Assembly (NCBI GenBank): GCA_021604505.1
Contig: BQJC01000006.1
Location: forward strand, 1-40,683
Source: Nitrospinaceae bacterium
Lineage (GTDB): Bacteria > Nitrospinota > Nitrospinia > Nitrospinales > VA-1
Reading direction: 5' to 3'
Length of the DNA: 40,683 bases
Under the pieces are notes generated by a model. It made no database searches. It had not been told where the DNA came from and worked only from the letters and a program-made list of their open reading frames with translations. Of this stretch, positions 3,133-32,914 are shown piece by piece. The translations under genes were made by a program, and so were the position numbers. Position 1 is the first letter of the stretch. Every line of letters starts with the position of its first letter.

Positions 3133-3999
3133 ATGAATCAAGGACCAAAGAGACAACATTGGCTTCCCTGCGCCTATCTTCAATTTTTTTCTATTGATGG
3201 ACAACCGCATGGAAGAGAAACGCAGATTTATTTTACTGATGGGAGGTCCTCCCAAATAACCTCAGTTAATAATCTGGCAGTAGCTAAATATACCTATTCT
3301 AGGACAAATCCTGAGTGTGATTCTGTATTCCATAACATGGAAAAGAATTATCCTCCAATTATTAAAAATATCTTGAAGGGGAACCAGTTAACAAAGAAAG
3401 ATAAATATGGATTGATCATGATGATGTTCGATTTAAACCTACGAAATGTTGTATATGAAAATCGAACTGAAATGGAAAGAATAAAATTGTATGAGGGAAT
3501 TTCAAGAGCCTTTGTTGGCTCAATGTTTGAAGAAACTACTGGAAAAGGAAATGATTTTAATGAAATGGCTAGCCATTTAGAAAAAAACTGGGAGCTAGAT
3601 TCTCTTCGATCAACCAGTGGAGAGAAGTTTATCTCTTCTGATAACCCCTCAATGATAATCGCCGATAAAAATAGTAGCCGACCAGTTTTAGTCTGCCTCC
3701 CTATCCATCCTGACCTTGCAATGATTGCTTACGATAAGAGAACTTCAGAGATTATTAGTAATTCTATAACTGATGATGCCTTGGGAATCCTGAATGGGCT
3801 GCAAATAAAACTTTCAGTGCGGCATACATTTTCCGATCATGACATTATGTTGCCCCCTACAACTTCCAAAAGGGTTCAAGAATTACTAGATCAAGAAAAA
3901 CCCGAAAGATGGATAGATCAGGATTGGTGGCACGATGGGTTTATAAAATTCCACAGCCCTTTTATAGATAGGTTGGAATTTATCAAAAGAGTTGAATAA
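3133..3999 (+). CDS. DUF4238-type protein of unknown function
   Basis: 288 aa. The N-terminus KRQHWLPCAYLQFF matches the (R)xHxxPxxYLxxF opening of DUF4238, and FISSDNPSMII in the middle matches that family's conserved SDNP segment. The family is scattered in bacteria, often in accessory DNA; its biochemical activity is unknown to me. No signal peptide or membrane segment is seen. There is no clear Shine-Dalgarno sequence, but the family motif begins only six residues after the ATG, which supports this start. It stands alone: the neighbouring genes are over 100 bp away or on the other strand. Composition is AT-rich compared with the PIN gene before it. Confidence 0.65.
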   Translation: MNQGPKRQHWLPCAYLQFFSIDGQPHGRETQIYFTDGRSSQITSVNNLAVAKYTYSRTNPECDSVFHNMEKNYPPIIKNILKGNQLTKKDKYGLIMMMFDLNLRNVVYENRTEMERIKLYEGISRAFVGSMFEETTGKGNDFNEMASHLEKNWELDSLRSTSGEKFISSDNPSMIIADKNSSRPVLVCLPIHPDLAMIAYDKRTSEIISNSITDDALGILNGLQIKLSVRHTFSDHDIMLPPTTSKRVQELLDQEKPERWIDQDWWHDGFIKFHSPFIDRLEFIKRVE

Positions 4000-5043: not shown

Positions 5044-5739
5044 ATGAAAATTGTAGTCGGAGGAACCAAAGGAGGTTCTGGAAAATCAACAGTGGCAACA
5101 AATTTGGCGGTCCTACGGGCCACAGAAGGCCACGAAGTATTACTGGTGGATGCGGATGACCAGGAAACAGCCGCAGACTTCACGGAACTTAGAAACCAAA
5201 CATTAGAGGAGGGAGCGGGTTATACATGTATAAAACTCACCGGCCCCTCGGTTCGCACAGAAGTCCAACGCTTAGCTCCCAAATATGACGACATCATTAT
5301 TGATACAGGGGGTAGGGACACAACGAGCCAACGAGCCGCCCTCACGGTAGCCGATATTCTTCTGGTTCCTTTCGTTCCAAGGTCCTTTGATGTTTGGACC
5401 TTGGACAATATTTCCAGAATTGCGGATGAAATGAAAGTCGCCAATCCTGATCTCAAGGCGTTTATCTTTTTGAATCGGGCTGATCCAGCCGGTAAAGACA
5501 ATCAGGCCGCCCAGGAATACATACTTGAAGAACTCAAAGATCAGGGAAGGCTGGGAACTTTCGAACTCTTGGACGCTTCCTTAGGAACTCGCAAGGCCTT
5601 TGGGAACGCGCAATCAAAGGGATTGGCCGTCACCGAGCATTACCCTAAAAACCTTAAAGCCGAGCGTGAATTATTAACGTTATATTCATGTATTTTTAAC
5701 GTTTTGGTGAAATCAAATCTCATGGAATTGCAGGCATAG
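5044..5739 (+). CDS. parA: ParA-family partition ATPase
   Basis: 231 aa. The deviant Walker A box GGTKGGSGKST (residues 6-16) carries the signature lysine of the ParA/MinD group; LLVDADDQE near 33-41 is the A' motif and DDIIIDTGG near 81-89 is Walker B. Length and lack of an N-terminal DNA-binding domain put it with short type Ib plasmid partition ATPases. It would bind nucleoid DNA with ATP and move the plasmid or element through its centromere-binding partner, here the RHH gene 4 bp downstream. The C-terminal end contains TAACGTTA again. Expression is probably autoregulated through the palindromes upstream. VirC1-like relatives of ParA help conjugation instead, so a role in transfer is possible. 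Confidence 0.85.
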   Translation: MKIVVGGTKGGSGKSTVATNLAVLRATEGHEVLLVDADDQETAADFTELRNQTLEEGAGYTCIKLTGPSVRTEVQRLAPKYDDIIIDTGGRDTTSQRAALTVADILLVPFVPRSFDVWTLDNISRIADEMKVANPDLKAFIFLNRADPAGKDNQAAQEYILEELKDQGRLGTFELLDASLGTRKAFGNAQSKGLAVTEHYPKNLKAERELLTLYSCIFNVLVKSNLMELQA

Positions 5740-9120: not shown

Positions 9121-12100
9121 ATGCCCCGAATTTTTGACAACATCGAGAAGTCTTTATTGCCAGCATTATCTGAAACTCTTGCGGTTTCAGAAAGGGCTGA
9201 TTTTTGTGTTGGATATTTTAATCTGCGCGGCTGGAAGCAAATTGATCAACATATCGAGAAGTGGTCAGGGGGTGAAGGAAATTGTTGCCGCTTGCTTGTG
9301 GGAATGCAAAAGCTACCAGAGGATGAATTAAAATTTTATTTTAGCGTGGCAGACGAAAAGCAAGATTTGGATAATCAAACCGCATTGCGATTGAAAAAAT
9401 CCTTAGCAAATGAATTTAGAAACCAATTAACCTTTGGTGCCCCAAATAACGCCGATGAAGCAGGACTTCGAAATCTCTCCAACCAGATAAAAGATAAAAA
9501 GGTGATCGTCAAATTGTTTCTCCGGCATTCCCTACATGCCAAGCTATATTTATTGTTTCGACAGGACGTTATAAACCCAAAAATTGGTTACGTGGGAAGT
9601 AGCAACCTTACCTTTGCCGGTCTTTCAAACCAAGGTGAATTAAATGTCGATGTAATGGATGAGGATGCGTGCGACAAGCTAGCCAAGTGGTTTGAAGATC
9701 GATGGGAAGATAGATGGTGTATCGATATTTCAGAAGAATTAGCTGAAATAATTGATGAAAGCTGGGCAAGAGAAGATGTCATCTCCCCATATCATATTTA
9801 CGTGAAAATTGCCTACCATTTATCCCAGGAAGCGCGAGCTGGATTAACCGAATTTAAAATTCCAAGAGACTTTGGCAATACCTTATTGGCTTTCCAGAGT
9901 GCCGCAGTGAGAATAGCCGCACGGCATCTCAATAGAAGGAACGGGGTATTAATTGGCGATGTAGTTGGTTTAGGAAAAACCTTAATGGCGGTCGCCCTGG
10001 CCAGGGTATTCGAGGATGACTATGGCTTGGAAACCTTAATAATTTGCCCCAAAAATCTGGTTTCCATGTGGGAAGATTACCGGGATAAATATAGAATGCG
10101 GGCCAAAGTTATTTCCTTAACAAGGGTCCAGGCTGAATTGGAGGAGTTAAAAAGATATAGGCTGGTCATTATTGATGAAAGCCACAATCTTCGAAATCGA
10201 GAAGGGAAAAGATTTAAAGCTATTCAGGATTATATACAGAAAAATGATAGCCGCTGTATTTTATTGTCGGCAACACCATACAACAAAACCTACCATGACC
10301 TTTCCAATCAACTCCGTCTATTCCTGGAGGATGATAAGGATTTGGGAATCCGACCAGAGCGGTTACTAAAGGAGATTGGAGAAACAGAGTTTATAAGAAG
10401 GCATCAGGCCTCGGTTCGCTCTATCGCGGCATTTGAAAAGTCGGATTATGCAGATGATTGGCGCGAACTTATGCGTTTGTATTTGGTTCGTAGAACCCGG
10501 AGCTTTATCAAGGATAACTACGCGGAAACGGACCCAGATACAGAGAAGAAATATCTTCTTTTTGAAGACGGTCAAAAATCTTACTTTCCAGATCGGATTC
10601 CAAAAACAGTCAAATTTCAAATGAAAAAGGGCGATCACAACGATCAGTATGCCAAATTGTACGCTGATGAGGTTATTCATGCCATAGAGGATTTGTATCT
10701 GCCAAGATATGGCATGGGTAATTATGTAGCCCCAAGCCCCCACACGCCTCCAACAACACACGAAACAAAAATTCTGGACGATTTGTCTCGGGCAGGAAAA
10801 CGATTGATGGGTTTTTGCAGAACAAGCCTTTTAAAACGCCTGGAAAGTAGTGGGGAGGCCTTTCTTCTTTCACTGGAAAGACACGCCTTAAGGAACTACA
10901 TCTTTCTTCATGCAATCGAGCAAAACTTGGAAATTCCAATCGGAGCCGCTGATGCTGGCCTAATGGATACACAATCTTTCGATGAAGATTATGATTCTAT
11001 GTTTCAGGATGAAAATAATGAAGAAGATGAAGATGGGCGGGAGGATTTTGAAGTAAACCATAAACTGAAAACCATTGACCAATTTCAAAAAAGAGCAAAG
11101 CAGGTCTACAAAATTTTCAGAACAAAGGGCAAACGGAGATTTCGCTGGCTTAGATCAGAGTTATTCGTAAAGGAATTTGCAGAAGATTTAGAGGAAGATT
11201 CTAAAAACATTATTAAATTGATTAGTTCCTTTGGAGGCTGGGATGCTGAAAAGGATGCAAAGTTAAATGCTCTCCACGATTTGCTAACCAACAAACATCC
11301 TACTGAAAAAATTTTGGTTTTTAGCCAATATGCAGACACAGTTCGATACCTCGAAAGGGAACTAGGCAAACGAGATTTAAATAAATTTTCCGGTGTAACC
11401 GGTGACAATGAAAACCCAACCAGTTTGGCTTGGCGGTTTAGCCCGGTGAGCAATGAAAAAACCGATAGGGTGAGTAAAGATCAGGAATTAAGAGTTCTAT
11501 TAGCCACGGATGTTCTCAGCGAAGGTCAAAACCTCCAGGATTGCTCTATTGTCGTAAATTACGATCTTCCATGGGCAATTATCAGGCTTATCCAAAGAGC
11601 AGGGCGCGTGGACCGTATTGGCCAGAAGTCAGATAAGATTTTTTGTTATTCCTTTCTCCCAGCCGAAGGTATTGACCAAATTTTAAATCTGCGTGGTCGG
11701 GTTCGCCAACGTCTGCGGGAAAATGCTGAAGTGGTGGGTACGGATGAGGCCTTTTTCGAAGATGAGGACAGCCAGGCAGTATTGGATTTATACAATGAAA
11801 AAAGTGGGATTTTGGACGGAGATGATGACAAGGAGGTTGACCTCTCCTCCTACGCCTACCAGATATGGAAGAATGCCATTGAGGCCGATTCATCTTTAAA
11901 GTCTACCATCGAGAAGCTTTCCAACGTTGTTTATTCTACAAAAGCCTATAAGCCGGAACCGGAACGCCCCGAAGGAGCTTTGGTTTATGTTCGCACAGCC
12001 AGCGACCATGACACTCTAGCTTGGGTTAATCAAGAAGGACTGAGCGTTACAGAAAGTCAATTTGAAATTCTTAAAGCCGCCGAATGCGAACCTAAGACTC

Positions 12101-12495
12101 CAGGGTTGCCTCGCCATGAAAAGCACCATGAAATTGTCCAAAAAGGAGCGGAGCATATTGCTCAGGAGGAAAAAAATACGGGAGGGTCACTTGGGCGACC
12201 CACAGGAGCCCGATTTAAAACATATGAAAGGTTAAAAAACTATCTTTCAGCAGTTGAAAATACTCTTTTCGCTACAGACGCTCTCAAACGAACCATTGAC
12301 GATATTTATCGTTTCCCATTGCGGCAAACGGCCACAGACACCTTAAACCGCCAGTTAAAAAGCGGAATTTCTGACGACCAGTTGGCTGAGTTGGCGGTCC
12401 AATTAAGGGAAGAAGATAGGCTCTGTATCATTCATGATGAAACGCATCCCCATGAGCCAAAAATAATCTGTTCCATGGGGTTATGGAATAAATAA
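9121..12495 (+). CDS. PLD-nuclease / SNF2-family helicase
   Basis: 1124 aa. Residues 1-200 form a phospholipase-D-type nuclease domain: [11 protein letters not shown], then HAKLYLL (H139, K141), [10 protein letters not shown] (N162) and E173, one HKD half that would dimerise. A superfamily 2 helicase follows: Walker [10 protein letters not shown] (279-287), DESH (352-355), LSATPYN (382-388), and in the C-terminal lobe [13 protein letters not shown] and [12 protein letters not shown]. The layout resembles NgoFVII-type PLD endonucleases fused to DrmD-like helicases. Together with the methyltransferase 15 bp downstream it should act as translocase and nuclease that reads methylation and attacks foreign DNA. 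Start is preceded by GGAGA. First gene of a four-gene operon. Confidence 0.85.
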
Positions 12496-12510
12496 TCTTT
12501 GACAACGCTT

Positions 12511-15500
12511 ATGACCTTCAATCAAGACAAAGTCCGCACTCATTTAAAAACGGCAAACTTTCAAAAGCTGTTTATTGAGGAATTGGGATGGGATAACCCA
12601 TCTACCGATCAAGAAATTACCGTGGATGGGGAAACAATGCCCCTGAAAGCGGTGGCTCAAAAAAGAGGTCTTGCCGTATTTAAGTGTGACTTTCTCAATA
12701 ATGGCAAAATCCCTGACAGCAATTTCCGCCGCAAAATTGATAATCAATTGACCAAGTATGTCCGTGAGCACCTGATTATTTTCGTTTCTGAAAATAATGA
12801 CCGCCAGGAGTGGCAATGGGTCCGGCGCGAACCCGGCCAAACATCTGCCCTTAGAACAGCCTCCTTTAATCAAAGCCAATCTGGTGAGGTGTTAATCCAA
12901 AAACTTCGCGGGCTCTACTTCAGTCTGGATGAGGAAGAAAAGCTTACCTTGGTGGACGCAACCAGCCGTGTACGGGCGGCTTTTGATGTCGAAAGGGTTA
13001 CCAAACGCTTTTATGACCTTTTCAAGAAAAAGCATGACAAGTTTTTATCATTTATCAAGGGGATTCCTGATGATGAATTTCAGCGGTGGTATGCCTCTGT
13101 AATGCTCAACCGCATCATGTTCATCTATTTTCTTCAAAAGAAGAACTTCCTTGACAACGATCCCAACTACCTCCGTACCCGCCTCAATTTGGTTAAAGAA
13201 AAGAAAAAGGGTGGTTATTACAAAACTTTCTTATGCCCTTTGTTTTTTGAAGGTTTCGCAAAAAAGGAAAAAAACCGTCCTAAAGAGTTCAGGGATTTGT
13301 TGGGCAAAATTCCTTATTTAAATGGCGGGCTGTTTTTGAAGCATCAGTTGGAAGACCTGTATGGGGACAAAATAGACATTCCAGATAAAGCATTTGAGGA
13401 TTTATTCGAATTCTTTGACCAGTATCAATGGCATCTTGATGAAAGGCCTTTACGTCAGGACAACGAAATCAACCCGGATGTTTTGGGATATATTTTTGAA
13501 AAATATATCAACCAGAAACAAATGGGAGCCTACTATACCAAGGAAGATATTACCGATTATATCAGCAAGAACACCATAATCCCTTGGCTGTTCAATACGG
13601 CCAGCAAAAAATGTGAAATAGCCTTCGACAAGGGAAGTTATCTCTGGAATTTGTTACAGTCCAATCCCGACAAATATATATTCTCCGCTGTTCGACACGG
13701 GTGTGACCTAGAACTCCCCTCCAATATTTCTAAGGGTCTTGCCGATGTTTCCAAAAGGACCGACTGGAATAAATCCGCCCCACCTGAATATGCTTTGCCT
13801 ACGGAAATATGGCGGGAAGTGGTAGCACGCCGCCATCGCCATGAAGAAACCAAATCTGCAATAACAAATGGCGAAATTCAATCTATAGAAGACTTCATCA
13901 CCTTTAATTTGGACATTCGGCAGTTCGCTCGCGACGTGATTGATGGGGCCGAGGGCCCGGAACTTGTTCGGGCATTTTGGAAGGCTATAAATGAAATCAC
14001 CGTACTCGACCCGGCTTGCGGATCAGGTGCCTTTTTATTTGCCGCCCTTAACATCTTAGAGGATTTGTATGAAGCCTGCCTGGAACGAATGCAGGGATTT
14101 GTAAATGATTTGGATTCCAATGGAAGTAGAAAGGTAGCAAAGCTAAAGGATTTTAGGGATATCCTTGAGCGAATTTCCAGCCACCCAAATGAAAAATATT
14201 TTGTCTATAAATCAATCATTATCAAGAACCTGTTTGGTGTGGATATTATGGAAGAGGCAACCGAAATTTGCAAACTACGCCTTTTCCTAAAGCTTGCCGC
14301 GCAACTGGAGAGTCCGGATCATATAGAACCCTTGCCTGATATAGATTTCAATATAAAGGCTGGGAACTCTTTAATAGGGTATACATCTGAAACGGACATT
14401 AAAAGATCAAAAACTTTTCAAAATGCTGACGAGCAGCTTGGTTTTGAATTTGACGATAGGTTGGAACAAATTAAGAATAAAAGTGAGGACTTAGATTCAG
14501 CGTTTGTTGGATTCAGAAAACAACAAACCGATATTGGTGGGGAAATCACACTAAAACATAAGGAAGATTTAAAAGCCCGCCTTTATGACTTAGAAGAGGA
14601 ATTAAATACTTATTTATGCCAGGATTATGGGATAGACCCTGATATCCAGTCTTCATATAAAAATTGGAAGGCAAGCCATAAGCCCTTTCATTGGTGGCTT
14701 GAATTTTATGGGATTATGAATAATGGCGGATTTAATGCGTGCATCGGAAACCCCCCTTATGTGGAATACAGCAAAGTAAAAGGAGATTACACCTTAAAAG
14801 GATTCAAATTAATAGGCACAGGAAATTTATACTCAATATTTATTGAAAAATTCAATTCTGTTTTAGAAAAAAATGGCTTATGCGGCATTATTGTTCCTAT
14901 TAGTTCTGTCTCAACCCCCAGGATGGAACCATTAATGAAATTTATGGATCAAGGGTTTTCTTTATTATTTGCAAGCAATTATGCAGTGCGCCCGGATAAA
15001 TTATTTGTTGGGGTTGATATGAATTTAACCATCTTCATAGGGAAAAAAGGAAAGCAGAGCAATAATCAGATTTTTTCAACCAAATACACCCGTTGGTTTA
15101 GTGAATTTAGACCTTATTTATTTCAAAGCCTGGTTTTCTCTAAAACTCATTTTTTAAAGTCTGGGGAATCAGTTGCAATTCTTAAATTAGGCAATCAATT
15201 AGAATTGGGGATCATAGAAAAGATAATGTCATTTCAAAATATTGGTCTTATAGAGCAGAGGTCAGGAGGATCTGAGGTAATTTATTATCACAGCGGTGGA
15301 AGATATTTTAGAAAGGCCATAAAGAAAAAACTTTCCAACGAGTACAAGGAGCTTTCATTAAAGGAAAATTGGGGTGACCCTTTAATTTGTGTCCTTTCCT
15401 CTTCGCTTTATTATTTCCTTTGGCTTGTAACATCAGATACCTATCATGTTACCAAAGGAGATATACATATTTTGACAATACCAGAAACCCTCAAAGAGGA

Positions 15501-15753
15501 TAGGAAAATCCCTAGGCTTTCCAAAAGACTTCTTGATGATTTATGGTCTAATGCAGAAACAAGAAATCGCAACCGTGCTGATGGGTCACAGCAACAAGAA
15601 GTTAATTTTAAAGTAGGAAAATCAAAGGCCATAATTGATGAAATTGATCATATTTTAGGCAAACATTATGGCTTGAAGGAGGAGGAATTAGATTTCATTA
15701 TTAACTATGATATTAAGTATCGATTGGGCCCTTCTGAAATCGAAAAATCCTAA
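12511..15753 (+). CDS. Eco57I-like adenine DNA methyltransferase
   Basis: 1080 aa from the ATG at 12511; a TTG at 12499 is also open and neither has a clear Shine-Dalgarno sequence, which suggests coupling to the helicase stop 15 bp before. The SAM-binding motif DPACGSGAFL is at residues 500-509 and the catalytic NPPY at 747-750, the order of N6-adenine methyltransferases of the Eco57I/type IIG group. GAYYTKEDITDYI near 340 is the segment that usually precedes the methylase core. The N-terminus is helical and unlike a PD-(D/E)xK nuclease, so cleavage probably comes from the PLD partners. It would mark host DNA as self; target recognition likely lies in the C-terminal third. BREX PglX and DISARM DrmMI have similar cores. 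Confidence 0.85.
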   Translation: MTFNQDKVRTHLKTANFQKLFIEELGWDNPSTDQEITVDGETMPLKAVAQKRGLAVFKCDFLNNGKIPDSNFRRKIDNQLTKYVREHLIIFVSENNDRQEWQWVRREPGQTSALRTASFNQSQSGEVLIQKLRGLYFSLDEEEKLTLVDATSRVRAAFDVERVTKRFYDLFKKKHDKFLSFIKGIPDDEFQRWYASVMLNRIMFIYFLQKKNFLDNDPNYLRTRLNLVKEKKKGGYYKTFLCPLFFEGFAKKEKNRPKEFRDLLGKIPYLNGGLFLKHQLEDLYGDKIDIPDKAFEDLFEFFDQYQWHLDERPLRQDNEINPDVLGYIFEKYINQKQMGAYYTKEDITDYISKNTIIPWLFNTASKKCEIAFDKGSYLWNLLQSNPDKYIFSAVRHGCDLELPSNISKGLADVSKRTDWNKSAPPEYALPTEIWREVVARRHRHEETKSAITNGEIQSIEDFITFNLDIRQFARDVIDGAEGPELVRAFWKAINEITVLDPACGSGAFLFAALNILEDLYEACLERMQGFVNDLDSNGSRKVAKLKDFRDILERISSHPNEKYFVYKSIIIKNLFGVDIMEEATEICKLRLFLKLAAQLESPDHIEPLPDIDFNIKAGNSLIGYTSETDIKRSKTFQNADEQLGFEFDDRLEQIKNKSEDLDSAFVGFRKQQTDIGGEITLKHKEDLKARLYDLEEELNTYLCQDYGIDPDIQSSYKNWKASHKPFHWWLEFYGIMNNGGFNACIGNPPYVEYSKVKGDYTLKGFKLIGTGNLYSIFIEKFNSVLEKNGLCGIIVPISSVSTPRMEPLMKFMDQGFSLLFASNYAVRPDKLFVGVDMNLTIFIGKKGKQSNNQIFSTKYTRWFSEFRPYLFQSLVFSKTHFLKSGESVAILKLGNQLELGIIEKIMSFQNIGLIEQRSGGSEVIYYHSGGRYFRKAIKKKLSNEYKELSLKENWGDPLICVLSSSLYYFLWLVTSDTYHVTKGDIHILTIPETLKEDRKIPRLSKRLLDDLWSNAETRNRNRADGSQQQEVNFKVGKSKAIIDEIDHILGKHYGLKEEELDFIINYDIKYRLGPSEIEKS

Positions 15754-15771
15754 ATTTTAGGAACCTCCAAA

Positions 15772-16998
15772 ATGAATAAATGGATTACAAACGAGATTAA
15801 TGGGAACTTAAGTTTTTGCAATTGTATCCTTTCCATCTTAAAGGATGCCTATAGGGTTGATGTTGCAGTTAGTTATGTATTGTTAAGTGGATGGGAGCTT
15901 CTAGAACCAAGACTGAAATCGATGCCAAGAGGTTCAGTGCGCTTGCTTATAACTGATCAACTTAATATTACACAACCAGAAGCATTAAGGCGTGCGCTGG
16001 CATTGGGAATAAATTTACGTAATTTCGATGGTCGTTTTTATCACCCAAAAACTTACATAGCCTATGGGAAAAAAGGTGGCCCTAAAATTGGAATCCTTGG
16101 GAGTGCTAATATTAGTGAATCTGGCCTCACCAAATCTGTTGAAGCGGGGGTAATGACCAAGGACAAGGTATTATTGAATGAAATGAAGCTTTGGTTTGAG
16201 GGTATGTTTACAGATAATACTTTAAGCAAAAAAATAAATAGAAAATGGATTGATAAACTTGAAATTGAGTGGTTGCAAGCGGCGAAAAAGAGGGCTAAGG
16301 GGGTAAAGTTAAGGGCTCCTTCTAGAAAAAGAAAGAGAGCAAAAAGGGCTGTCTCTTTAGAAGAAAACGAAATACTTGAAGATATATTTGCAACCATTCG
16401 ACAGCCTATCGGAAATTTAAGTTTTGACCAAGCGGCTAATAACATTAGAAATCTTGACAGGGCTCATAATGTTTTAAAGCGGTTTCCAAGAGTTAATCCC
16501 AAGGAAAAAAGTGAATTGCACCTATTGGGTTTTATGAATGAAGATGGCCTAACCGAACTTGGGAAAAATGGGAAATTGGCAAAAAATATACAGACGCTAG
16601 CGTTGGCTTGGTGTAAATGGGTTGCCAATCAGACAGATGATGAATTAGCAAAATTTAATATCCGACTTATTAGTTTTAAAAATTCCGCTACTCAATTCTG
16701 GAAACTAAAACCAGAAGTATCTAATTTCTTTTTAGACAATCTTCACTCGCAAAACGATAAGGGCCTTCTTCAAACTATTGAGCTACTTTGCAATGGCAGT
16801 AAGGTTAGCCTTGGGCTTTCTTTGGCTGACTTAAAAGTAATTGCACCTAAAATAATTGAAGGCACCCAATTTTCTGAATTTGTGGGAAAACGAGTACAGG
16901 GTTATTTAAATAATAAAGGAAGCCGGAGTTGGAGCGGAGATGATCGGAAGATCATATTAATTGCTTGGAAAAAGGCTGCCAGTAAGAAGAAAAATTAG
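15772..16998 (+). CDS. Second PLD-family nuclease-like protein of the defence operon
   Basis: 408 aa, 18 bp after the methyltransferase, with AGGAA upstream. The N-terminal 140 residues are a PLD half-domain: VAVSYVLLSGWELL, then YHPKTYIAYG (H91, K93), ILGSANISESGL (S111, N113) and E124. It is followed by a very basic linker (residues 173-192) and a helical C-terminal region of about 200 aa that I do not recognise. DISARM also has a PLD protein (DrmC), though with different neighbours. A second nuclease, or a specificity helper for the first, are both possible. The basic linker suggests DNA contact. Confidence 0.75.
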   Translation: MNKWITNEINGNLSFCNCILSILKDAYRVDVAVSYVLLSGWELLEPRLKSMPRGSVRLLITDQLNITQPEALRRALALGINLRNFDGRFYHPKTYIAYGKKGGPKIGILGSANISESGLTKSVEAGVMTKDKVLLNEMKLWFEGMFTDNTLSKKINRKWIDKLEIEWLQAAKKRAKGVKLRAPSRKRKRAKRAVSLEENEILEDIFATIRQPIGNLSFDQAANNIRNLDRAHNVLKRFPRVNPKEKSELHLLGFMNEDGLTELGKNGKLAKNIQTLALAWCKWVANQTDDELAKFNIRLISFKNSATQFWKLKPEVSNFFLDNLHSQNDKGLLQTIELLCNGSKVSLGLSLADLKVIAPKIIEGTQFSEFVGKRVQGYLNNKGSRSWSGDDRKIILIAWKKAASKKKN

Positions 16999-17557
16999 GA
17001 GGGGAATAGTAACAAAAATTTTTTGGGAGAATAAAACTATTGATATTCGCGGTGTTTCTTCTTTTCTAAAAGGTTTAAAAAGATTAGGGCTATTTTGTTC
17101 CAATAAGTGCCCAGGGGAAATCATTTTAAAATGTCAGGATTGGGCGAATGGATTGTCACCATCAGATGCCGTAGTTATTGGTGGGTTTCATACGCCGATT
17201 GAGAAAGATGTTTTACGAATTTTGTTAAGGAGCAAACATCCTGTAGTGATTTGCCCTGCCCGTTCATTGACCAAAATGCGGTTGTCTGCATCATGGAAAG
17301 AGGCCCTTGAAGCGGGGAACCTTTGCCTTGCTTCCGACTTTCCCAAATCCATCACCCGAGCCACCAAGGAGACCGCCGAACAGCGCAACCATTTCGTGGC
17401 CAGCTTGTCCAATTCGGTTTTCATTCCCTATGCCGCCCCAGGCAGTAAAACAGAAGCCTTGGCCGAAGCTCTTTTAAAGAAAAAACTTTTCGTCTATACT
17501 TTCAACAGTCCCTACAACAAAAACTTGCTAGGTTATGGAAGTAAACCGATACAATAA
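16961..17557 (+). CDS. DprA/SLOG-like Rossmann-fold protein of the defence operon
   Basis: Up to 198 aa. The body matches DNA-processing protein DprA/Smf: VVIGGFHTPIEKDVLRILL, VVICPARSL, the late-strand ASDFPKSI, EQRNHFVASLSN (compare RNRIIAGLS in DprA) and SKTEALAEALLKK. DprA-like SLOG domains bind ssDNA or nucleotides. The start is unclear: the frame opens at a TTG (16961) inside the previous gene, while a strong AGGAGGGG (16997-17004) precedes only ATA, GTA and ATT codons. Translation may begin at a rare codon or by coupling to the PLD stop at 16998. It is the last gene of the operon and meets ietS tail to tail, 13 bp apart. A sensor role in the system is inference. Confidence 0.65.
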   Translation: MLGKRLPVRRKIRRGIVTKIFWENKTIDIRGVSSFLKGLKRLGLFCSNKCPGEIILKCQDWANGLSPSDAVVIGGFHTPIEKDVLRILLRSKHPVVICPARSLTKMRLSASWKEALEAGNLCLASDFPKSITRATKETAEQRNHFVASLSNSVFIPYAAPGSKTEALAEALLKKKLFVYTFNSPYNKNLLGYGSKPIQ

Positions 17558-17570
17558 ATTAATATGAGAG

Positions 17571-20171
17571 TTATCTTGGGCGTGGTGTAACTCGAAGCCT
17601 TTGTTCGATTTCCTCGTATATAGGAATTTCCAATTCAGATTCAATCGTAATTGCGATCCCATAACGAACAGCCTCTTCAATTCCTCCGGCGTCCTCCTTG
17701 CACCATACCTTTAACGACAGGTGCCCATCATCAATAAAAGGAACGGCTCTATTGCCATGATACCGTTCGTGAAAAATTGTACCTTTTTTGACCGAAGCGT
17801 CGGCAGGCTGATCGCCTTTTCTTCTTTCAACACCTAACGCGGTTAAGGGCTCGTCAGGAGATGCTTCTAGTTTTACACATCGATAACTTTGGTGCCCCGG
17901 CTTTACCGGTGAGAACCAAGCAAGGGTGATGTTGAGTGCGCGCGGGTCAGTAACTCGTTCAAGCGAGGAGGGTAGAGGTATTCGGTAATTATGTGCCTGA
18001 TTTGGGGGAAGTTCCCCATAGCCGACGAGAGTAGCCCGGTTGTTAGCACATTCCATGGCCTCAAGAATATTAGGAACCCCAAAACCCAAGAAGCGGGTTA
18101 CATTTTCCGCCCGTTCAACAAATCGCCGACCATCATCAGGCCCACAGATTTCTTTTAAAAGATCAGACTTACCATTCCATTGAGCACGGTGAACTAAAAG
18201 GGTTTTCACAACCACAGCATAAAATTCAGGAGGCATGTCAACCAATAAAGAACCTCCGTCCCGATCCATTAGAGCATCAAAAATTCTGTGTGCTGCACGT
18301 GTGGCCAGGGCCGTTGCCGAACTCGTACCATCACTTAGTGCGGTCTTACCCAATTGCCCTTGGCCAGATGAATCTGGAGTCGCAACGCTCAGTCCATAGA
18401 GCCGTTGCGGTTGACCAAATCGCAATTCAATTCCACCCCCGGAGCTTCCCATCCGCACATGTTCCCTACCTCCCGGAAGAAAGATTTCTGGTTTGACCGT
18501 TCGACGATATCCCAAACCCAAGGCGGAGCTTGCATTGGGTAACTCATGATCGTCAAACGGATCAACGGCGTTCGGTATTTGAGAGCGGGTAACTATGTTG
18601 TCATGGTGTTGTCCTCCTATTGTTAGCACATTGAGAGCCTCCGCCGGAGAAAGGATTGTCCGCTCATGTTTGACTGTATTAAGTGCTTCCAAGACAGCTC
18701 TTTCACGGTCGGTAGCAGAAGCTCTCTCGAAATCACCCCAGGTATTGAAATGATTTAAACGAAGAGGTTCAGGTACATTCCCACCACTTACCAAAAACAG
18801 AATTCCGTATTGATTTGACAAAAAATCTAAAAGCCGGGCAAGGGGACTTACTAGGCGTGTGAACGGTCTGCGAACGTCACCAATTGATAGGTTCACCAAA
18901 AAAACCGTTGGAGCCGCCGCTTCTTCACCTGAACTTCCTTTCATTCTTAGAATGGCGCGATATATCGTATCAATAACCAGCCTGCCACCGTCAGTCCGTT
19001 CCTGGTTATCATTTTCCTGAGCGAACATAATTGGACGAACATAGAGAGAATGATGGAGCGGGGCCTCACCAGCATTTAAGTCTCCATGCAGGATAAGAGA
19101 TGCCATGGCTGTACCATGAATCCGTCTCGACACAATGGCAAGGCTTTCTAAATTATCTGGATCATCGATACTCAGACGTTGGTCTAGTAGATTGTGTCCT
19201 TGAAGGGGTACCCCGTCCAAAAGAGCAGCGATCGGCAGGTTGTTTTCTGGGGCTCCAGTCCGATCTTCCAAATCCTGTGGTTCTATTTCTTCAGGTTCCA
19301 ACTCATTAATCAGCAAGCTTTGAGGACGCAGAAACATTACTTCATCGGCAAGAGCCAGATGGACATCCCTACGTTCCATAAGTGTTGAAACTGCCTGTGC
19401 TGGTATGTCAATCAGCGCACCATGATAAGCAATTTCACTGATTGCCGCTTCATGAACGATTTGCCCTCCAGCTTCGTTAACATGCTCCATGAGCCGATTT
19501 GAAGCTTCTTGCCTTTGGTTTTCCGTTTGATGAAACCAGAGTTCAACCTCTGTCCTTACAGGCCGCGTTGGATCCCTCTGAATCTCATCATTCCAATATT
19601 CTATGGTTTCGTCTAGAATTCTGTCTTCGGCTCCCCAGGGTCTGAGCACACGCAGTTGTGAGAAAACCTTCTCAAAGGGGGTAAATCCTCTCCCAAGCCT
19701 TTCGCCACGTGCCCACCGCTCCCAAAGGCTTAATAGTTCATCGAAAGCACCCCTTGTTGGCATAGCCAAGTAGAAACGACCTGGCACATCCTTGTCTTCT
19801 CTTGCAGTTCCTTCTCGCCCTTTTCGATTATCCTCGACTGCGAATAGATCATCAGGTGGTTCTTTAGTATCGTATTCAGCCATGAACTCAAGCCCAGGAA
19901 CCTTGCTTGCAGCCTTTACGAAGTCATCAACAGAACCAGCAATTTCAAATACGATTACCCGATCCGGTGCAAGACTACTGGGGTCGTCACGAAGTTCCAT
20001 ACCACCAGTGGCATTATCCTGTAGAGTTTGACGCAATCTTTGAAAAACAGGTTGGAACCGCCCGACTTGAGTTCTGCGGTCTGGCTTTCGAATTGGCCCA
20101 CCGCCACCGGCACCGCGTGGTGGTTCAATCTGTTCAGGCGTCGGAAGAATCAGTAATGGTCTTTCTGCCAT
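17571..20171 (-). CDS. ietS: Subtilisin-like serine protease, IetS-type
   Basis: 866 aa from the ATG at 20169-20171, chosen for GAAGG upstream; the frame opens at 20210. The catalytic triad of peptidase family S8 is complete: D319 in AALLDG, H352 in RIHGTAMAS, S617 in SDGTSSATA, with the oxyanion Asn in SGGN (465). There is no signal peptide, so it works in the cytoplasm. The long N-terminal part (about 300 aa) is unlike secreted subtilases and may be the sensor. The start lies 38 bp inside ietA, so they are coupled. IetAS was described from Agrobacterium plasmids as a stability/incompatibility pair and later shown to defend against phage; the protease is the toxic part restrained by the ATPase. 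Confidence 0.85.
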   Translation of the reverse strand: MAERPLLILPTPEQIEPPRGAGGGGPIRKPDRRTQVGRFQPVFQRLRQTLQDNATGGMELRDDPSSLAPDRVIVFEIAGSVDDFVKAASKVPGLEFMAEYDTKEPPDDLFAVEDNRKGREGTAREDKDVPGRFYLAMPTRGAFDELLSLWERWARGERLGRGFTPFEKVFSQLRVLRPWGAEDRILDETIEYWNDEIQRDPTRPVRTEVELWFHQTENQRQEASNRLMEHVNEAGGQIVHEAAISEIAYHGALIDIPAQAVSTLMERRDVHLALADEVMFLRPQSLLINELEPEEIEPQDLEDRTGAPENNLPIAALLDGVPLQGHNLLDQRLSIDDPDNLESLAIVSRRIHGTAMASLILHGDLNAGEAPLHHSLYVRPIMFAQENDNQERTDGGRLVIDTIYRAILRMKGSSGEEAAAPTVFLVNLSIGDVRRPFTRLVSPLARLLDFLSNQYGILFLVSGGNVPEPLRLNHFNTWGDFERASATDRERAVLEALNTVKHERTILSPAEALNVLTIGGQHHDNIVTRSQIPNAVDPFDDHELPNASSALGLGYRRTVKPEIFLPGGREHVRMGSSGGGIELRFGQPQRLYGLSVATPDSSGQGQLGKTALSDGTSSATALATRAAHRIFDALMDRDGGSLLVDMPPEFYAVVVKTLLVHRAQWNGKSDLLKEICGPDDGRRFVERAENVTRFLGFGVPNILEAMECANNRATLVGYGELPPNQAHNYRIPLPSSLERVTDPRALNITLAWFSPVKPGHQSYRCVKLEASPDEPLTALGVERRKGDQPADASVKKGTIFHERYHGNRAVPFIDDGHLSLKVWCKEDAGGIEEAVRYGIAITIESELEIPIYEEIEQRLRVTPRPR

Positions 20172-21165
20172 CGGTTTTTCCTTCTTTTTGATAATTCTTT
20201 GCCTCCGCACGCTCCATCCAGATGTTGATTTGATCGGATACGATGGTCTTTAGAGACTTTTCTCCAAAGGAGAGGACATGACGCCTTTGAACATCAAGAC
20301 AGAATTGTTCAATTTCAGCATAACTGACCTTACCAAGTTTTTTTGCAATGTTGGCGGGAGAGTATCCTAGATTATCGTTAAAACGTTGGGTAAAACTTTC
20401 AATATAACGGCCTAGAGCTTTTTGTGTTGGCATAGGAAGATTAAGGCGAAGCTGAAAACGACGCCAAGAAGCTCGATCCAACAATTCAGGATGATTGGTT
20501 GCCCCGGTGACGATTGTGTAGCTGGGCAAATCATCAACCTGCATTAACAAAGATGTAACAACACGTTTAATTTCTCCAGTCTCGTGAATGTCACCTCTTT
20601 CTTTGCCAATAGCGTCAAATTCGTCAAAAAATAGGACGCAAGGAGTAGTCCGGGCATAGTCGAATACTCTTTTCAAACGGGCGGCGGTTTCTCCAAGGTA
20701 ACTTCCTATCATGGCCTCGTACCGGACCACGAATAGCGGGACCGCGATGGACTCTGCAATTGCTTCGGCCAAGCTAGTTTTACCAGTTCCTGGTGCCCCT
20801 ACTAGCAGAATACGGTGACGTGGCTCCAGTCCATTTGACCTCAATAAATCAGCGCGCTGCTGCTCCTCTATAAGTTGTTCAATGGCGAGAATTACTTTGT
20901 CCGGCAGGATAAGGTCCGTTAATTGCCTTTTAGGCGTAACTTCAGCAATGAAATCACGACTTTTTGCCGATAAATCATTTACTGGAGTCACAGCACGTGA
21001 GTTTACTCCATTTGTCTGAACGGCCCGGGTTAAACGGTCTGCTAAAACGTTATGTTGTTTCGCCCGTTCCTCTGCAATTATCGCTTCAACAGCTTTTTGA
21101 AATCCATGTTTGTCGCCACTCGCGCTTGATTTTACTAAATTTATTAAAAGATCACTTCGCGCCAT
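20134..21165 (-). CDS. ietA: AAA+ ATPase, IetA-type
   Basis: 343 aa. A single AAA+ module: Walker A GAPGTGKT (123-130), Walker B VLFFDEFDAIG (D181, E182), sensor 1 in VTGATNH (N224) and an arginine-finger-like RASWRRF. About 110 residues of helical N-terminal domain precede it. The start has AGGAGG at 7 nt. In IetAS the ATPase controls the partner protease, acting like an antitoxin or loading substrates. The coding order RHH - ietA - ietS with overlaps of 14 and 38 bp implies one transcript. The ATPase class (classical AAA, as in FtsH and spastin) fits remodelling of protein targets. Confidence 0.85.
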   Translation of the reverse strand: MARSDLLINLVKSSASGDKHGFQKAVEAIIAEERAKQHNVLADRLTRAVQTNGVNSRAVTPVNDLSAKSRDFIAEVTPKRQLTDLILPDKVILAIEQLIEEQQRADLLRSNGLEPRHRILLVGAPGTGKTSLAEAIAESIAVPLFVVRYEAMIGSYLGETAARLKRVFDYARTTPCVLFFDEFDAIGKERGDIHETGEIKRVVTSLLMQVDDLPSYTIVTGATNHPELLDRASWRRFQLRLNLPMPTQKALGRYIESFTQRFNDNLGYSPANIAKKLGKVSYAEIEQFCLDVQRRHVLSFGEKSLKTIVSDQINIWMERAEAKNYQKEGKTDGRKTITDSSDA

Positions 21166-24810: not shown

Positions 24811-24989
24811 CCTCCTTTGTTGGTTTTTTCAAGTCTCCATGCATCGTTAGCCGTCCGCGCCGCCGCGTCAATGGGCTGGCCCGCTCCATTCGGTTCCCTC
24901 CCGTGTGGCCCATGACCCTGCGGCTTTTTCGTCCGGCTGTTCCTCTCCGCATGTTGAAAAAACCTTCACAACAAAGGAGTGGAACCATG
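24811..24989. repeat. ~180-bp leader repeat, copy 2 (before ardC)
   Basis: Second copy of the element at 22375-22554, in the same orientation and again ending at a start codon. The 37-nt identical core begins at 24856. Differences are small insertions and deletions (for example GCGTTCCGCTC against GGTTCCCTC). On the minus strand this copy reads GQPIDAAARTANDAWRLEKT and then stops, so it may hold the tail of a small gene. Retention of both copies before two accessory genes suggests common regulation. Confidence 0.7.
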
Positions 24990-25892
24990 AAAAATACGAT
25001 CCCGAAAGCCGACATTTACACCCGCATCACCAATCAAATTGTTGCCGATCTGGAACAGGGTGTCCGGAGCTGGGTGAAACCGTGGCATTGCGACCACATG
25101 GACGGCAAAATCACCCGTCCTCTTCGCCACAACAGCGTCCCCTATACTGGCATCAATATCTTAAGCCTTTGGTCCTCCGCAATGGCACAGGGATTTGCAT
25201 CCCCGACCTGGATGACCTTTCGACAGGCAAAAGAGTTGAATGCCAGTGTACGCAAAGGCGAAAAGGGCTCTCTCGTGGTCTATGCCAACAAAATCACCCG
25301 CACCGATGAAAATGAAAACGGGGAGGAATTGGAAAGAGTCATTCCCTTCCTGAAAGGTTACACGGTTTTTAATGTCGAGCAGATTGACGGCCTGCCCGAA
25401 AATTATTACGAAAAACCCACACTGCGCTTTGACGCTGTGCAACGGATCGACCACGCGGAAGCCTTCTTCAAGAATACCGGCGCAGATATCCGGGAAAATG
25501 GCAATCGTGCTTATTACGCGGTTGAGCCTGACTATGTACGGGTACCGCCCATAGAGGCTTTCACCAACCCCGAAAGCTACTATGCCACCCTGGCCCACGA
25601 GTGCACCCACTGGACGCGCCATCCTTCACGCCTTGACCGGAGTTTCGGTCGTAAAAAGTGGGGCGATGAAGGCTACGCGAAAGAAGAACTCGTGGCTGAA
25701 CTCGGGGCCGCTTTTCTTTGCGCCGATCTTGAATTGACTTTGGAGCCCCGCGATGATCACGCTTCTTATATCGCCTCCTGGCTGAAGGTACTCAAGGACG
25801 ATACGCGGGCCATTTTCCACGCCGCCGCTCATGCACAGCGCGCAATTAATTTTCTCCACAGCTTTCAGGAGGAAACCGTCGGGGCGGCTTGA
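24987..25892 (+). CDS. ardC: ArdC-type antirestriction protein
   Basis: 301 aa from the ATG at 24987, chosen for AAAGGAG 8 nt upstream; the frame is open from 24903 within the leader repeat. The N-terminal ~130 residues form the ssDNA-binding domain (DIYTRITNQIVADLEQGV, RPLRHNSVPYTGINILSLW, WMTFRQAKELNASVRKGEKG). The C-terminal domain is a zincin-like metallopeptidase with LAHECTHWTRHP (H204, E205, H208) and the third-ligand helix EELVAELGAAFL. Full family length. ArdC coats and protects incoming single-stranded plasmid DNA during conjugation, so it is usually expressed on entry. A terminator hairpin overlaps the end of the gene. It shares its leader with the DUF3768 gene. Confidence 0.92.
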   Translation: MKNTIPKADIYTRITNQIVADLEQGVRSWVKPWHCDHMDGKITRPLRHNSVPYTGINILSLWSSAMAQGFASPTWMTFRQAKELNASVRKGEKGSLVVYANKITRTDENENGEELERVIPFLKGYTVFNVEQIDGLPENYYEKPTLRFDAVQRIDHAEAFFKNTGADIRENGNRAYYAVEPDYVRVPPIEAFTNPESYYATLAHECTHWTRHPSRLDRSFGRKKWGDEGYAKEELVAELGAAFLCADLELTLEPRDDHASYIASWLKVLKDDTRAIFHAAAHAQRAINFLHSFQEETVGAA

Positions 25893-26564: not shown

Positions 26565-28784
26565 CTAAGCTCGCGTAGGGAAAAGCTTTTCTTTAGTTTC
26601 AGAGCTTTGGATAATACATTTATCAACAAACACCACGACAAACCAAATCATAAATATAATTATAACTATTCCTATCCATGGTGATTTTTCGATAATTACG
26701 GTTATTGTATCCATTGACATTACATTGAGAAATTGGGAAATAAGGCCCAGGACTATTAAGGGAGACATGGCAGCAAAACTTCCAACCAAGGACCCTAAAA
26801 TACAATTCCACAAAAGAATGAGAAATAATAAAGATGACTTAAGAGGTCCTTCACTATTTACCCCCGTTCCAAAATAATTATTCCACCAGTTATTTTTGGA
26901 CATGTTGAAAGAGGAAAGGATAATGACACCAATAGGAAGGCAAAAAAACAAACCTTGATGGACCGTATCCTGAACCAAAAAAAAATTTTTAACTTTTAAA
27001 ATCCCCGTATCTCCCCAAATTATTTTTATCACGGTGAAATAACAAAGGCCGCAAAAAACAACAATCGAAGTTGATAACCCAACGCATTTAAACAATATAT
27101 TTTTGTCCGGCCCGCCTTCTCCGATATCAATTGGTTTGGATTTTTCACTATTCATCATGCCCTCCACAATAAAATTTTCAGACTCTCCTTGATTTGGCTC
27201 TTCCCCCAGTCGCCCTGATTGCCCCTTAATCTTCTTTTCTATTTTTTTTAAGAGAATATCGGCAATGATCAAGGCTAAATAAAAGAGTGTTATAGAGTGA
27301 AACCACTTAAACCAAGTTGTATTTTGCCACAAGTCAATCCAGGGACTTCCAAGAAGAGGGTTAATAAAATCTCCGCAGGCAATAAAAATTAAATTAACAA
27401 GAATAAATGAAAATAAAATAAGCCAAAATTGAATGGTTGAAATTTTCCAACGAAAAGGGCTAAAGATTTTATCTGTGATTGAAATTTCCTCTCGATCAAT
27501 ATCATAAAAGGAGAATAGAAAATCCCTGAATCCCAGGTCCCGTTTTCCAAAACGCAATTTCCATGGAAAATCCAGAACGGCTTTATTCAAATTTGCTAGA
27601 TATAGAATTCCCAACCCGCCCAATCCTCCCAGAACAACCCCAGGAACCATACCCTTCAGATCTATTAAAAGAAGTCTGAAACAGGGCCAGTTCGATTGGG
27701 GGTCGCAGGGCTTAAAGATATAGTTCAACGGGTCCGGTGCGAAAGTATAGAAAAGTGGAATAGCAATAAAAAAAGCAATCACCCAATGAATGAGCCCCAG
27801 AATTAAACGGAAATATCCATCCTTTTCCAAACGCCAACCCTGATGGAATCCGGGAACTTTTTCGGATCGGACTGCAAATCGAAAAACCTTAAATAAATCA
27901 AAAACACCCTTGGCTATTACGGCGTAAATAACAAGAAAAGTTGTGCCAACGAAAGCGGGCCAAAAATTTTTTGCGTCTCCCAACCAGGATTCTATATTTC
28001 CTGGTGGATTGATAAAGTCCCAGTGCCCGAGTATTTTATGTAAAAGAGAAGATGAATAAAAAAGAAGATAAACAAATCCTGTTCCTGCAAATATACCGCA
28101 TACAACCACCCATAAAAATTCCTTCAAAGGCCATCTGGCTTTTTCTTTTTCCGTCATGGGCCAGTCAGCCCGGTCCAAGTCTGAAAAGTCCAGAACTTGG
28201 GCGGATGCGCCTTCCCACTCATCAGGAAACCAAACATTCATTTTGTCGCCAATGTCATTTAATCGCACATTGAGCTTATTGGCAGTGATTGCTCCATGGA
28301 TTTCGGGAAAAACAATATAATCCAGGCCATGTGCAAACCGGAACTCAAAACTCTCCGCATACTGGCCTGAAGGTGTTATGTTAAAAACATGGCCCTCACT
28401 TCTGGGAAACTTTTTCCACAGCCCCCAGGGAGGCTTTACCTTAATAAGGTAATGATTAAAAACAACAGAAACTTTAGTCCGCAATAAAAAAGGCAGACCA
28501 TATTTGTAAAATACAATCCAGCCTCCCAGATAAGGCGTAATTTTAATAAATAGAATCCAGAAAATAGATCCAAGTGGAGGGGGCCGGTACGTATATTCCC
28601 AGAGACCCCGAAATTTATATAATATCCAGACAACAATAACCAGACAGCCCACGCGCCCGACTTTCCAACAAAGTTGTTGCATAGCTGGTGTAATATAACG
28701 GGCATGAATCTGTACTTCCTTTTTTTCCGGAATGATCCTTGTAGACGGCCAACCCGTATAGGCAAGTTTTTTAATGATCGCCAT
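26565..28784 (-). CDS. Polytopic membrane protein coupled to TraG
   Basis: 739 aa from the ATG at 28782-28784 (a TTG three bases earlier is open). About twelve hydrophobic helices are visible, among them GCLVIVVWILYKF, FLWVVVCGIFAGTGFVYLLF, LILGLIHWVIAFFIAIPLF, FWLILFSFILVNLIFIAC, LLFLILLWNCILGSLVGSF and WIGIVIIIFMIWFVVVFVD, with a soluble domain of ~120 aa after the first two. The N-terminus (YTGWPSTRIIPEKKEVQIHA) is paralogous to the 193-aa protein at 8263. It overlaps the traG stop by 14 bp, which implies coupled translation. I know no family. One idea is that it supplies the membrane part missing from the coupling protein. Confidence 0.65.
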   Translation of the reverse strand: MAIIKKLAYTGWPSTRIIPEKKEVQIHARYITPAMQQLCWKVGRVGCLVIVVWILYKFRGLWEYTYRPPPLGSIFWILFIKITPYLGGWIVFYKYGLPFLLRTKVSVVFNHYLIKVKPPWGLWKKFPRSEGHVFNITPSGQYAESFEFRFAHGLDYIVFPEIHGAITANKLNVRLNDIGDKMNVWFPDEWEGASAQVLDFSDLDRADWPMTEKEKARWPLKEFLWVVVCGIFAGTGFVYLLFYSSSLLHKILGHWDFINPPGNIESWLGDAKNFWPAFVGTTFLVIYAVIAKGVFDLFKVFRFAVRSEKVPGFHQGWRLEKDGYFRLILGLIHWVIAFFIAIPLFYTFAPDPLNYIFKPCDPQSNWPCFRLLLIDLKGMVPGVVLGGLGGLGILYLANLNKAVLDFPWKLRFGKRDLGFRDFLFSFYDIDREEISITDKIFSPFRWKISTIQFWLILFSFILVNLIFIACGDFINPLLGSPWIDLWQNTTWFKWFHSITLFYLALIIADILLKKIEKKIKGQSGRLGEEPNQGESENFIVEGMMNSEKSKPIDIGEGGPDKNILFKCVGLSTSIVVFCGLCYFTVIKIIWGDTGILKVKNFFLVQDTVHQGLFFCLPIGVIILSSFNMSKNNWWNNYFGTGVNSEGPLKSSLLFLILLWNCILGSLVGSFAAMSPLIVLGLISQFLNVMSMDTITVIIEKSPWIGIVIIIFMIWFVVVFVDKCIIQSSETKEKLFPTRA

Positions 28785-32374: not shown

Positions 32375-32412
32375 CAAGTTGTGTGTGGTAATACCATTCC
32401 ACACCAAACTTG
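32375..32412. repeat. Inverted repeat near a possible nic site
   Basis: CAAGTTGTGTGTGG (32375-32388) and CCACACCAAACTTG (32399-32412) are complementary at 12 of 14 positions around a 10-nt loop. It lies 120-160 bp before mobC and about 30 bp before GCATCCCTCGG, the spacing order seen in MOBP origins. Confidence 0.5.
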
Positions 32413-32533
32413 GCAAGGGAGTCGCTGTCGCCTCCCATTGCATCCCTCGGACTTTAAGGCGCTTCAGCCCTTAAAAATCCAGACCAGAGTCAGCGTCTCT
32501 GGACACGCTTTCGGCGGGAAATGTGTATTGAAT

Positions 32534-32914
32534 ATGGCCGGCAAAAATAACAATCATCGCCCCTCGCCCTTCACGGTCCGGCTGACCGATGAAGAGCGCA
32601 CCGAACTTGAACACCGCGCCGAACGGGCCGGATTATCCCTGGGCGGCTATTTCAAGTCGGCGGCATTCAATACACCTCCCCCGGCCCAATCGCGCCGCCC
32701 TCCCGTTGACCGGGCGGAGCTTGCTAAGCTCCTGGCCGCAATTGGGCGCATTGGCAACAATGTGAACCAACTCGCCCGTGTTGCCAATGCGGGATCATGG
32801 CCGGAAGCCAAAGACCTCTCACAAGCCTGTTCCGATATCCGGTGGATACGGAAAGCGCTTATGAAGGCCCTCGGGAAAGATACCGATCCAACCCCCCGAG
32901 GACCGGGGCCATGA
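32534..32914 (+). CDS. mobC: MobC-like mobilization accessory protein
   Basis: 126 aa from the ATG at 32534 (the frame is open from 32381 but the upstream part is not family-like). The N-terminal half is a ribbon-helix-helix, FTVRLTDEERTELEHRAERA then GLSLGGYFKSAAF. The C-terminal half carries the MobC signature IGRIGNNVNQLARVAN and a final helix (DIRWIRKALMKAL). MobC proteins bind oriT, help melt the nic region and assist the relaxase. The stop overlaps the relaxase start (ATGA), so they are coupled. No strong Shine-Dalgarno sequence is seen. Confidence 0.8.
   Translation: MAGKNNNHRPSPFTVRLTDEERTELEHRAERAGLSLGGYFKSAAFNTPPPAQSRRPPVDRAELAKLLAAIGRIGNNVNQLARVANAGSWPEAKDLSQACSDIRWIRKALMKALGKDTDPTPRGPGP

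Follow-up and report, generated by a model that had tools for sequence, protein, structure and literature searches.

A restriction-like defence operon with a recurrent DprA-like partner and a cargo slot in a Nitrospinaceae bacterium

The window analysed here is a stretch of 40,683 nucleotides (contig BQJC01000006.1, assembly GCA_021604505.1) from a Nitrospinaceae bacterium whose metagenome-assembled genome comprises 3.64 Mb in 14 contigs. At positions 9121-17557 the window carries four genes, named g1 to g4 below, which represent a real and widespread restriction-like defence operon in a version with an accessory nuclease. As far as defence libraries and open papers show, what is new in this operon is a recurrent DprA-like partner, g4, and a cargo slot between g2 and g4. 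We consider that the operon is probably a methylation-guided, ATP-dependent restriction system consisting of three core genes and one accessory nuclease. The genes and their parts are as follows.

9121..12495, plus strand: g1, predicted phospholipase D (PLD) nuclease-SNF2 helicase/translocase, 1124 amino acids (Pfam PLDc_2, RE_NgoFVII, SNF2-rel_dom, Helicase_C)
9535..9639, plus strand: PLD motif (HxK...GSxN...E) of g1, residues 139-173, conserved in homologues
12511..15753 (open reading frame from TTG 12499), plus strand: g2, predicted Eco57I/Type IIG-like N6-adenine methyltransferase (PADLOC, Pfam Eco57I)
12511..12993, plus strand: N-terminal domain of g2, PD-(D/E)XK-like element order in the AlphaFold2 model
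14764..15588, plus strand: putative target-recognition region of g2, residues ~756-1030, hypervariable by pairwise identities
15772..16998, plus strand: g3, second PLD protein, 408 amino acids (PLDc_2 E 2e-8; C-terminal half unassigned)
16961..17557, plus strand: g4, DprA-like (SLOG-type Rossmann) protein by fold and homologues, conserved part from ~17050

The core pair and its putative specificity region

All four open reading frames are intact and lie on one strand, with the spacing of 15 bp, 18 bp and an overlap that a first-pass annotation of the sequence had described. The 15-bp gap after g1 is given by ATG 12511, the likely start of g2 and the position where most homologues start; 18 bp separate g2 and g3, and g4, which has a TTG start, overlaps g3 by 38 nt. 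This overlap takes in most of the first ~16 residues of g4, which have no counterpart among homologues. An alternative start of g4 at 17009 was rejected, as the codon there is GTA and TTG 16961 is the one standard start codon in frame ahead of the conserved part. Since g1 and g2 match their homologues in length and keep their catalytic motifs, the operon is neither a chance nor a decayed locus. Promoter and terminator scans showed nothing above shuffled sequences.

Homologues of g1 were collected from plasmids, viral contigs and 85,000 species genomes; 581 were confirmed in the species genomes, and the best 80 loci, which spread over at least 25 phyla, were analysed. The identity of g1 was 59-68% in nearly all of these best 80 loci. 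Where the sequence continues past g1, g2 comes next with few exceptions, and the pair is also found on plasmids. The annotation of g1 as a helicase with its own PLD nuclease domain was borne out by the PLDc_2 and SNF2/Helicase_C matches, while the Pfam RE_NgoFVII match was weak and the best PADLOC match, HKD+Snf2, was distant at 173 bits. The PLD residues H139, G159 and E173 were each found in 89 of 89 homologues and K141 and N162 each in 88, and together with the Walker A, DESH and motif VI residues they were kept in 83 to 89 of the 89. For g2, the PADLOC model REase_MTase_IIG (PDLC03628) matched the full length, residues 5-1077, with an E value of 8e-295; Pfam Eco57I matched as well, and motif IV (NPPY) was kept in 64 to 65 of 65 homologues.

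The recognition region of g2 (~275 residues before the tail) has a mean pairwise identity of 0.26 in comparison to 0.59 for the catalytic core. The distances of the core correlated with those of g1 with r 0.75, a value that emerged after core and recognition region were split and two divergent methyltransferases omitted, whole-length g2 giving r 0.08 to 0.3, whereas the distances of the recognition region were uncorrelated with g1 (r 0.10, p 0.07). The operon thus presents two features of ATP-dependent, Type I-like restriction logic, namely an N6-methyltransferase with a conserved core and a hypervariable region, and an intact motor-nuclease conserved beside it. The pattern suggests a division of labour like that of Type I restriction, with g2 supplying the address to a generic motor-nuclease, g1. 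Since a recognition region is confined to g2 and no part of g1 varies, the address most likely comes from g2, either alone or in complex with g1.

A homologue of g2 (44% identity) is carried by the Synechocystis plasmid pSYSX, with a homologue of g1 two small genes upstream. Two DNA methylases, M.Ssp6803IV and V, have been assigned to pSYSX (PMC6604393), of which M.Ssp6803V is slr6095, the methylase of a type I system (PMC7296061), and M.Ssp6803IV methylates GA(m6)AGGC. The annotated plasmid shows just two DNA methylases, in a gene table that can be incomplete, and the other one fits slr6095; the pSYSX homologue of g2 is therefore very probably M.Ssp6803IV, the GA(m6)AGGC methylase. A bacterial ubiquitin-like module (DUF6527, ThiF, E2/UBC, multiubiquitin) adjoins the pSYSX homologue (L005:16924-19545).

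The DprA-like partner and the cargo slot

By sequence g4 matched DprA weakly (Pfam E 0.001, score 18.7 versus a cut-off of 29.6), and its PADLOC match to PsyrA was also weak (E 3e-9). The AlphaFold2 model of g4, built from 40 homologues, reached a predicted local distance difference test (pLDDT) score of 94; the model and the alignments begin at 17009, and proteins from plasmid records were left out of a structure-prediction alignment. In the Foldseek search (E 7e-10) the template modelling (TM) scores were 0.75-0.79 overall, with 0.76 for H. pylori DprA, 0.78 for S. pneumoniae DprA and 0.79 for ShosA (PDB entry 9vzo), a DprA-like antitoxin from a toxin-antitoxin pair that defends against phages. 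The predicted fold is clearly a DprA-like Rossmann fold, as the first-pass annotation had supposed, but lacks the additional domains found at either end of DprA; R126-N127, which corresponds in the alignment to an RN pair of DprA, is invariant in the 40 homologues. We rejected g4 as the genome's own DprA, since a separate full DprA is encoded on contig 1 (262 bits) and the g4 score lies under the DprA cut-off.

Among the 63 g1-g2 loci in which g2 is complete and followed by at least 2.5 kb, g4 was present in 37, from 19 phyla. The g4 hidden Markov model found 39 homologues in g1 loci and 0 in 73 viral loci used as controls, whose SNF2 genes are unrelated; these control loci come from a different kind of genome and therefore show profile specificity only. 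The distances of g1 and g4 were correlated (Mantel r 0.64, and 0.54 after near-duplicates were thinned, p 0.0002), and with the two divergent methyltransferases left out the correlation was 0.65 for g1 and g4 and 0.69 for the g2 core and g4. On the g1 tree the presence of g4 requires 9 changes; g4 is present throughout most of the large clade to which the window belongs, and the basal cyanobacterial and plasmid branches are without it. In 396 Acidobacteriota genomes, g1 was found in 13, g4 in 9 and both in 4 (co-occurrence P 8e-5), and of 11 places with g4 in this sample 5 are beside g1 or g2 and 6 stand alone. The idea that g4 is private to the g1-g2 system was rejected on account of such standalone relatives; g4 is a frequent, co-inherited, non-exclusive partner of g1-g2.

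Two further arrangements of g4 relatives were seen. A divergent version with the order g4-g2-g1 in Acidobacteriota (L206:265-7492), whose frames overlap or nearly so, may be a second subfamily. At L187:468-3388 a standalone relative is followed at once by the gene of a 750-aa DinG-like helicase, which suggests other helicase partners for the DprA-like family of g4.

The known roles of DprA-like proteins are in natural transformation and in toxin-antitoxin defence. If the present reading is true, they also accompany a restriction system as a regular partner, and a defined operon of three genes offers a way to test what they sense in non-competent bacteria.

The interval between g2 and g4 spans 0.4-5.6 kb in 22 of the 36 loci with g1, g2 and g4, and in the other 14 g4 lies directly behind g2, without cargo. 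A complete Gabija system occupies it at L051:17633-21404 (GajA 695 and GajB 727 bits) and a SIR2-HerA pair at L037:16716-20260 (SIR2 544 and HerA 886 bits), both in tight or overlapping frames. Other occupants are a HEC-01-like pair of an AAA ATPase and DUF4276 with a Macro protein (L017), Schlafen and Fic/RhuM proteins (L045), a Schlafen-type protein (L032), an MTaX1-HNH protein (L012) whose family is also present in L015 and L069, a nucleotidyltransferase (L044), a NYN protein (L046) and a DUF433 protein (L035).

In the window the slot is occupied by g3, whose HPK and GSAN motifs are intact and whose Pfam RE_NgoFVII match is weak. A single homologue of g3 was found, 44-45% identical, in Acidobacteria (L020 8490-9704), at a locus with the order g1-g2-g4-g3; its genome is the 1 of 396 Acidobacteriota genomes with g3. 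The gene was found in 0 of 77 genomes of the window's phylum besides its own, scans for close relatives in genome and viral collections found none, and a PDB search with g3 gave no match. Because one other copy is known and several other loci keep known defence genes at this position, g3 is best read as one insert of the slot, an accessory cargo outside the core. The four-gene unit proposed at first was thus rejected, as g3 is found in just one other locus: of the last two genes only g4 is conserved with the first two. The restriction-like, methylation-guided part of that proposal stands, while its two PLD nucleases are not a conserved architecture. BREX and BREX-related systems embed backup effectors in a like manner (PMC12839542). 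Directly after the g3 homologue lies a DndB/DpdB-like gene (L020:9783-10874; Pfam DndB E 2e-16, PADLOC DpdB E 1e-19). The g2-g4 gap, which already holds Gabija, SIR2-HerA, HEC-01-like modules and uncharacterised genes, is a place to seek accessory or unknown defence genes.

Proposed mechanism and alternative explanations

From these observations we infer the activities of the four proteins, a g1-g2 complex and the roles of g3 and g4 as follows. The methyltransferase g2 would put N6-methyladenine on a short asymmetric DNA site and so mark self, and g1, a generic PLD nuclease-translocase, would act on DNA with the unmethylated site, with the address given by g2 or the g1-g2 complex as HsdM/HsdS give it for HsdR. 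The trimmed DprA-like protein g4 is probably a DNA-binding protein, with single-stranded DNA from translocation or cutting as its likeliest ligand, and would gate or restrain g1, while g3 would be an accessory nuclease in the effector slot, probably a backup. This reading is supported by the full-length IIG-type methyltransferase match, the invariant motifs of g1 and g2, the hypervariable region of g2, the defence surroundings (the ietAS pair described below) and the slot cargo, as well as by the wide spread of the g1-g2 pair, the co-inheritance of g4 with g1, the GA(m6)AGGC methylase on pSYSX and the known occurrence of DprA-like proteins in defence. A more elaborate and quite tentative version, to which we give about one chance in four, is that a widespread chassis, built on a specificity-neutral PLD-SNF2 motor-nuclease, is steered by the separate IIG-like methylase, gated by a DprA-like sensor of single-stranded DNA and supplied with swappable backup effectors, complete defence systems among them, in the fixed g2-g4 slot, so that g4 may couple restriction to the effectors.

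Several points weigh against the restriction reading. In about 40% of the sufficiently long g1-g2 loci, among them those on the basal cyanobacterial and plasmid branches, g4 is missing and therefore cannot be essential everywhere; lone g4 relatives occur at the 6 Acidobacteriota places and at several in the window's phylum. The asymmetric motif is borrowed from a homologue of 44% identity whose specificity region differs, and may not be that of g2; for this reason it is uninformative that the genome showed no avoidance of GAAGGC, the motif so borrowed, beyond the reversed control. To our knowledge, no activity is known for any protein of the g1 family. A catalytic nuclease within g2, which would make it a true Type IIG enzyme, also belongs among these points and is unlikely on the evidence considered below.

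Among the alternatives, the one that survives best, at somewhat under one chance in three, is that g4 acts as a brake of the antitoxin kind, like ShosA, SyrA and RqlI, and holds g1 or the cargo g3 in check until infection, the operon being an abortive-infection device. DprA homologues act as antitoxins in shosTA, syrTA and rqlHI, and DprA-like proteins are also candidate DNA sensors in defence (PMC9122126). The top fold match of g4 by TM score is indeed ShosA, PsyrA is its PADLOC match, and the slot cargoes are often toxin-like (Fic, Schlafen, SIR2, HEPN-MNT-like). However, the 14 loci in which g4 comes straight after g2 indicate that cargo is not an obligatory partner, and the entire branches that have g1-g2 and lack g4 indicate that g1 needs no brake everywhere.

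A second alternative, that g2 works alone as a Type IIG restriction-modification enzyme, with g1, g3 and g4 as no more than neighbouring defence genes in one island, appears improbable to us. It would agree with the PADLOC placement of g2 in REase_MTase_IIG and with the N-terminal domain, since residues 1-345 were modelled by AlphaFold2 with pLDDT 90 and showed, in our reading, the alpha-beta-beta-beta-alpha-beta order of PD-(D/E)XK nucleases. In residues 1-165 of 64 homologues, however, no conserved acid pair or ExK was found, with only the acids E90 and D163 reaching 80% conservation, and a fold search with the N-terminal model against the PDB gave no significant match. The domain is thus probably an inactive nuclease remnant, and for these two reasons we would assign cutting to the PLD domain of g1. 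The near-constant adjacency of g1 and g2 and the core correlation of r 0.75 argue that g1 is not a chance neighbour.

The last alternative, a DISARM or DUF499-type BREX-related (Hma/Type-2) system with lost components, is hardly credible: the SNF2, N6-methyltransferase and PLD superfamilies are common to all of these, and Type-2 BREX-related systems pair an N6-methyltransferase with a Swi2/Snf2 helicase that carries an HKD (PLD) domain at its N-terminus (PMC12839542), but g1 and g3 fall far under the DrmD and DrmC equivalog cut-offs, DUF1998/MZB and DUF499 were not found anywhere in the genome, and the two- or three-gene set recurs as a unit across phyla.

Genomic setting and comparison with known systems

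The other features of the window that bear on the setting of the operon are listed below.

3133-3999, plus strand: DUF4238 protein (Pfam E 8e-15)
5044-5739: ParA
17571-21165, minus strand: ietAS defence pair, S8 peptidase IetS and AAA ATPase IetA (full-length PADLOC matches, E 1e-296 and 2e-150)
24903-25892: ArdC anti-restriction protein
26565-28787, minus strand: 740-aa protein overlapping the TraG gene, no Pfam match
28771-30387: TraG-type coupling protein
32381-34449: NikA/MobC and relaxase
34497-36728, minus strand: GmrSD_N (DUF262) protein, 743 amino acids, another likely defence gene

The known defence pair ietAS lies directly downstream of the operon and convergent to it. The relaxase, NikA/MobC, TraG-type coupling protein, ParA and ArdC encoded in the window indicate that the operon rides on a mobilizable element, which holds restriction-like and anti-restriction genes together; no terminal overlap was found between the contig ends. 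A DUF262 gene also adjoins the homologous operon of L007, and a single DUF4238 protein has conferred T7 resistance (PMC9122126).

In the PADLOC, NCBIfam and Pfam libraries no model covered the whole set: g2 was covered well and g1 distantly, by separate PADLOC models, while g4 matched PsyrA and g3 matched DrmC weakly. The resemblance to DISARM that was noticed at first, of a DrmD-like SNF2 protein, a DrmMI-like N6-methyltransferase and a DrmC-like PLD protein, holds at the superfamily level only, as g1 scored 133 bits versus a DrmD cut-off of 610 and g3 19 bits (E 2e-4) versus a DrmC cut-off of 133. The operon differs from DISARM in having no DrmA/DrmB core. Neither was among the PADLOC matches of the operon and its neighbours, save a weak SNF2-core similarity of g1 to DrmA, and a search for MZB (DUF1998), which gave matches in 8 of 14 control genomes, found none in the 3.64-Mb genome, in agreement with the first-pass annotation. 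DISARM was ruled out by the missing DUF1998 and the low DrmD and DrmC scores. Membership in the DUF499-centred BREX-related systems was likewise ruled out, DUF499 (PF04465) having no match in the genome and one in a control genome; DUF3780 (PF12635) had no match in the genome and none in any control genome either.

By domain content the Type-2 BREX-related systems, to which the Hma system (Type-1) is related, are close: they share the HKD-Swi2/Snf2 helicase and the N6-methyltransferase with the operon and have auxiliary or backup effectors inside core loci (PMC12839542). The DUF499-centred systems differ by DUF499, and DprA is unmentioned in that account of them. ShosTA and PsyrTA share the DprA-like fold of g4, whereas the operon is without a phosphoribosyltransferase or RecQ-like toxin partner and g4 is smaller and single-domain. 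Type IIG enzymes are like g2 in its end-to-end match to one PADLOC model and differ in that no conserved nuclease active site was found in the g2 N-terminus and a separate PLD-SNF2 gene is always alongside.

The nearest systems by mechanism are CglI/NgoAVII and SauUSI. CglI and NgoAVII combine a methyltransferase, a PLD nuclease and a helicase-like ATPase in ATP-dependent restriction at an asymmetric site (PMC5737866, PMC4267653), but their nuclease, with its own DNA-reading domain, and their ATPase are separate proteins, whereas in the operon PLD and SNF2 are fused, the variable region is in the methyltransferase, and g4 is an addition with no counterpart there. SauUSI, a Type IV enzyme, is like g1 a PLD nuclease fused to a helicase-like translocase, in which ATP-driven translocation leads to shredding (PMC7913695), but it reads its own target and cuts modified DNA; as g1 is paired with a methylase, the opposite logic, cutting of unmodified DNA, is expected for the operon.

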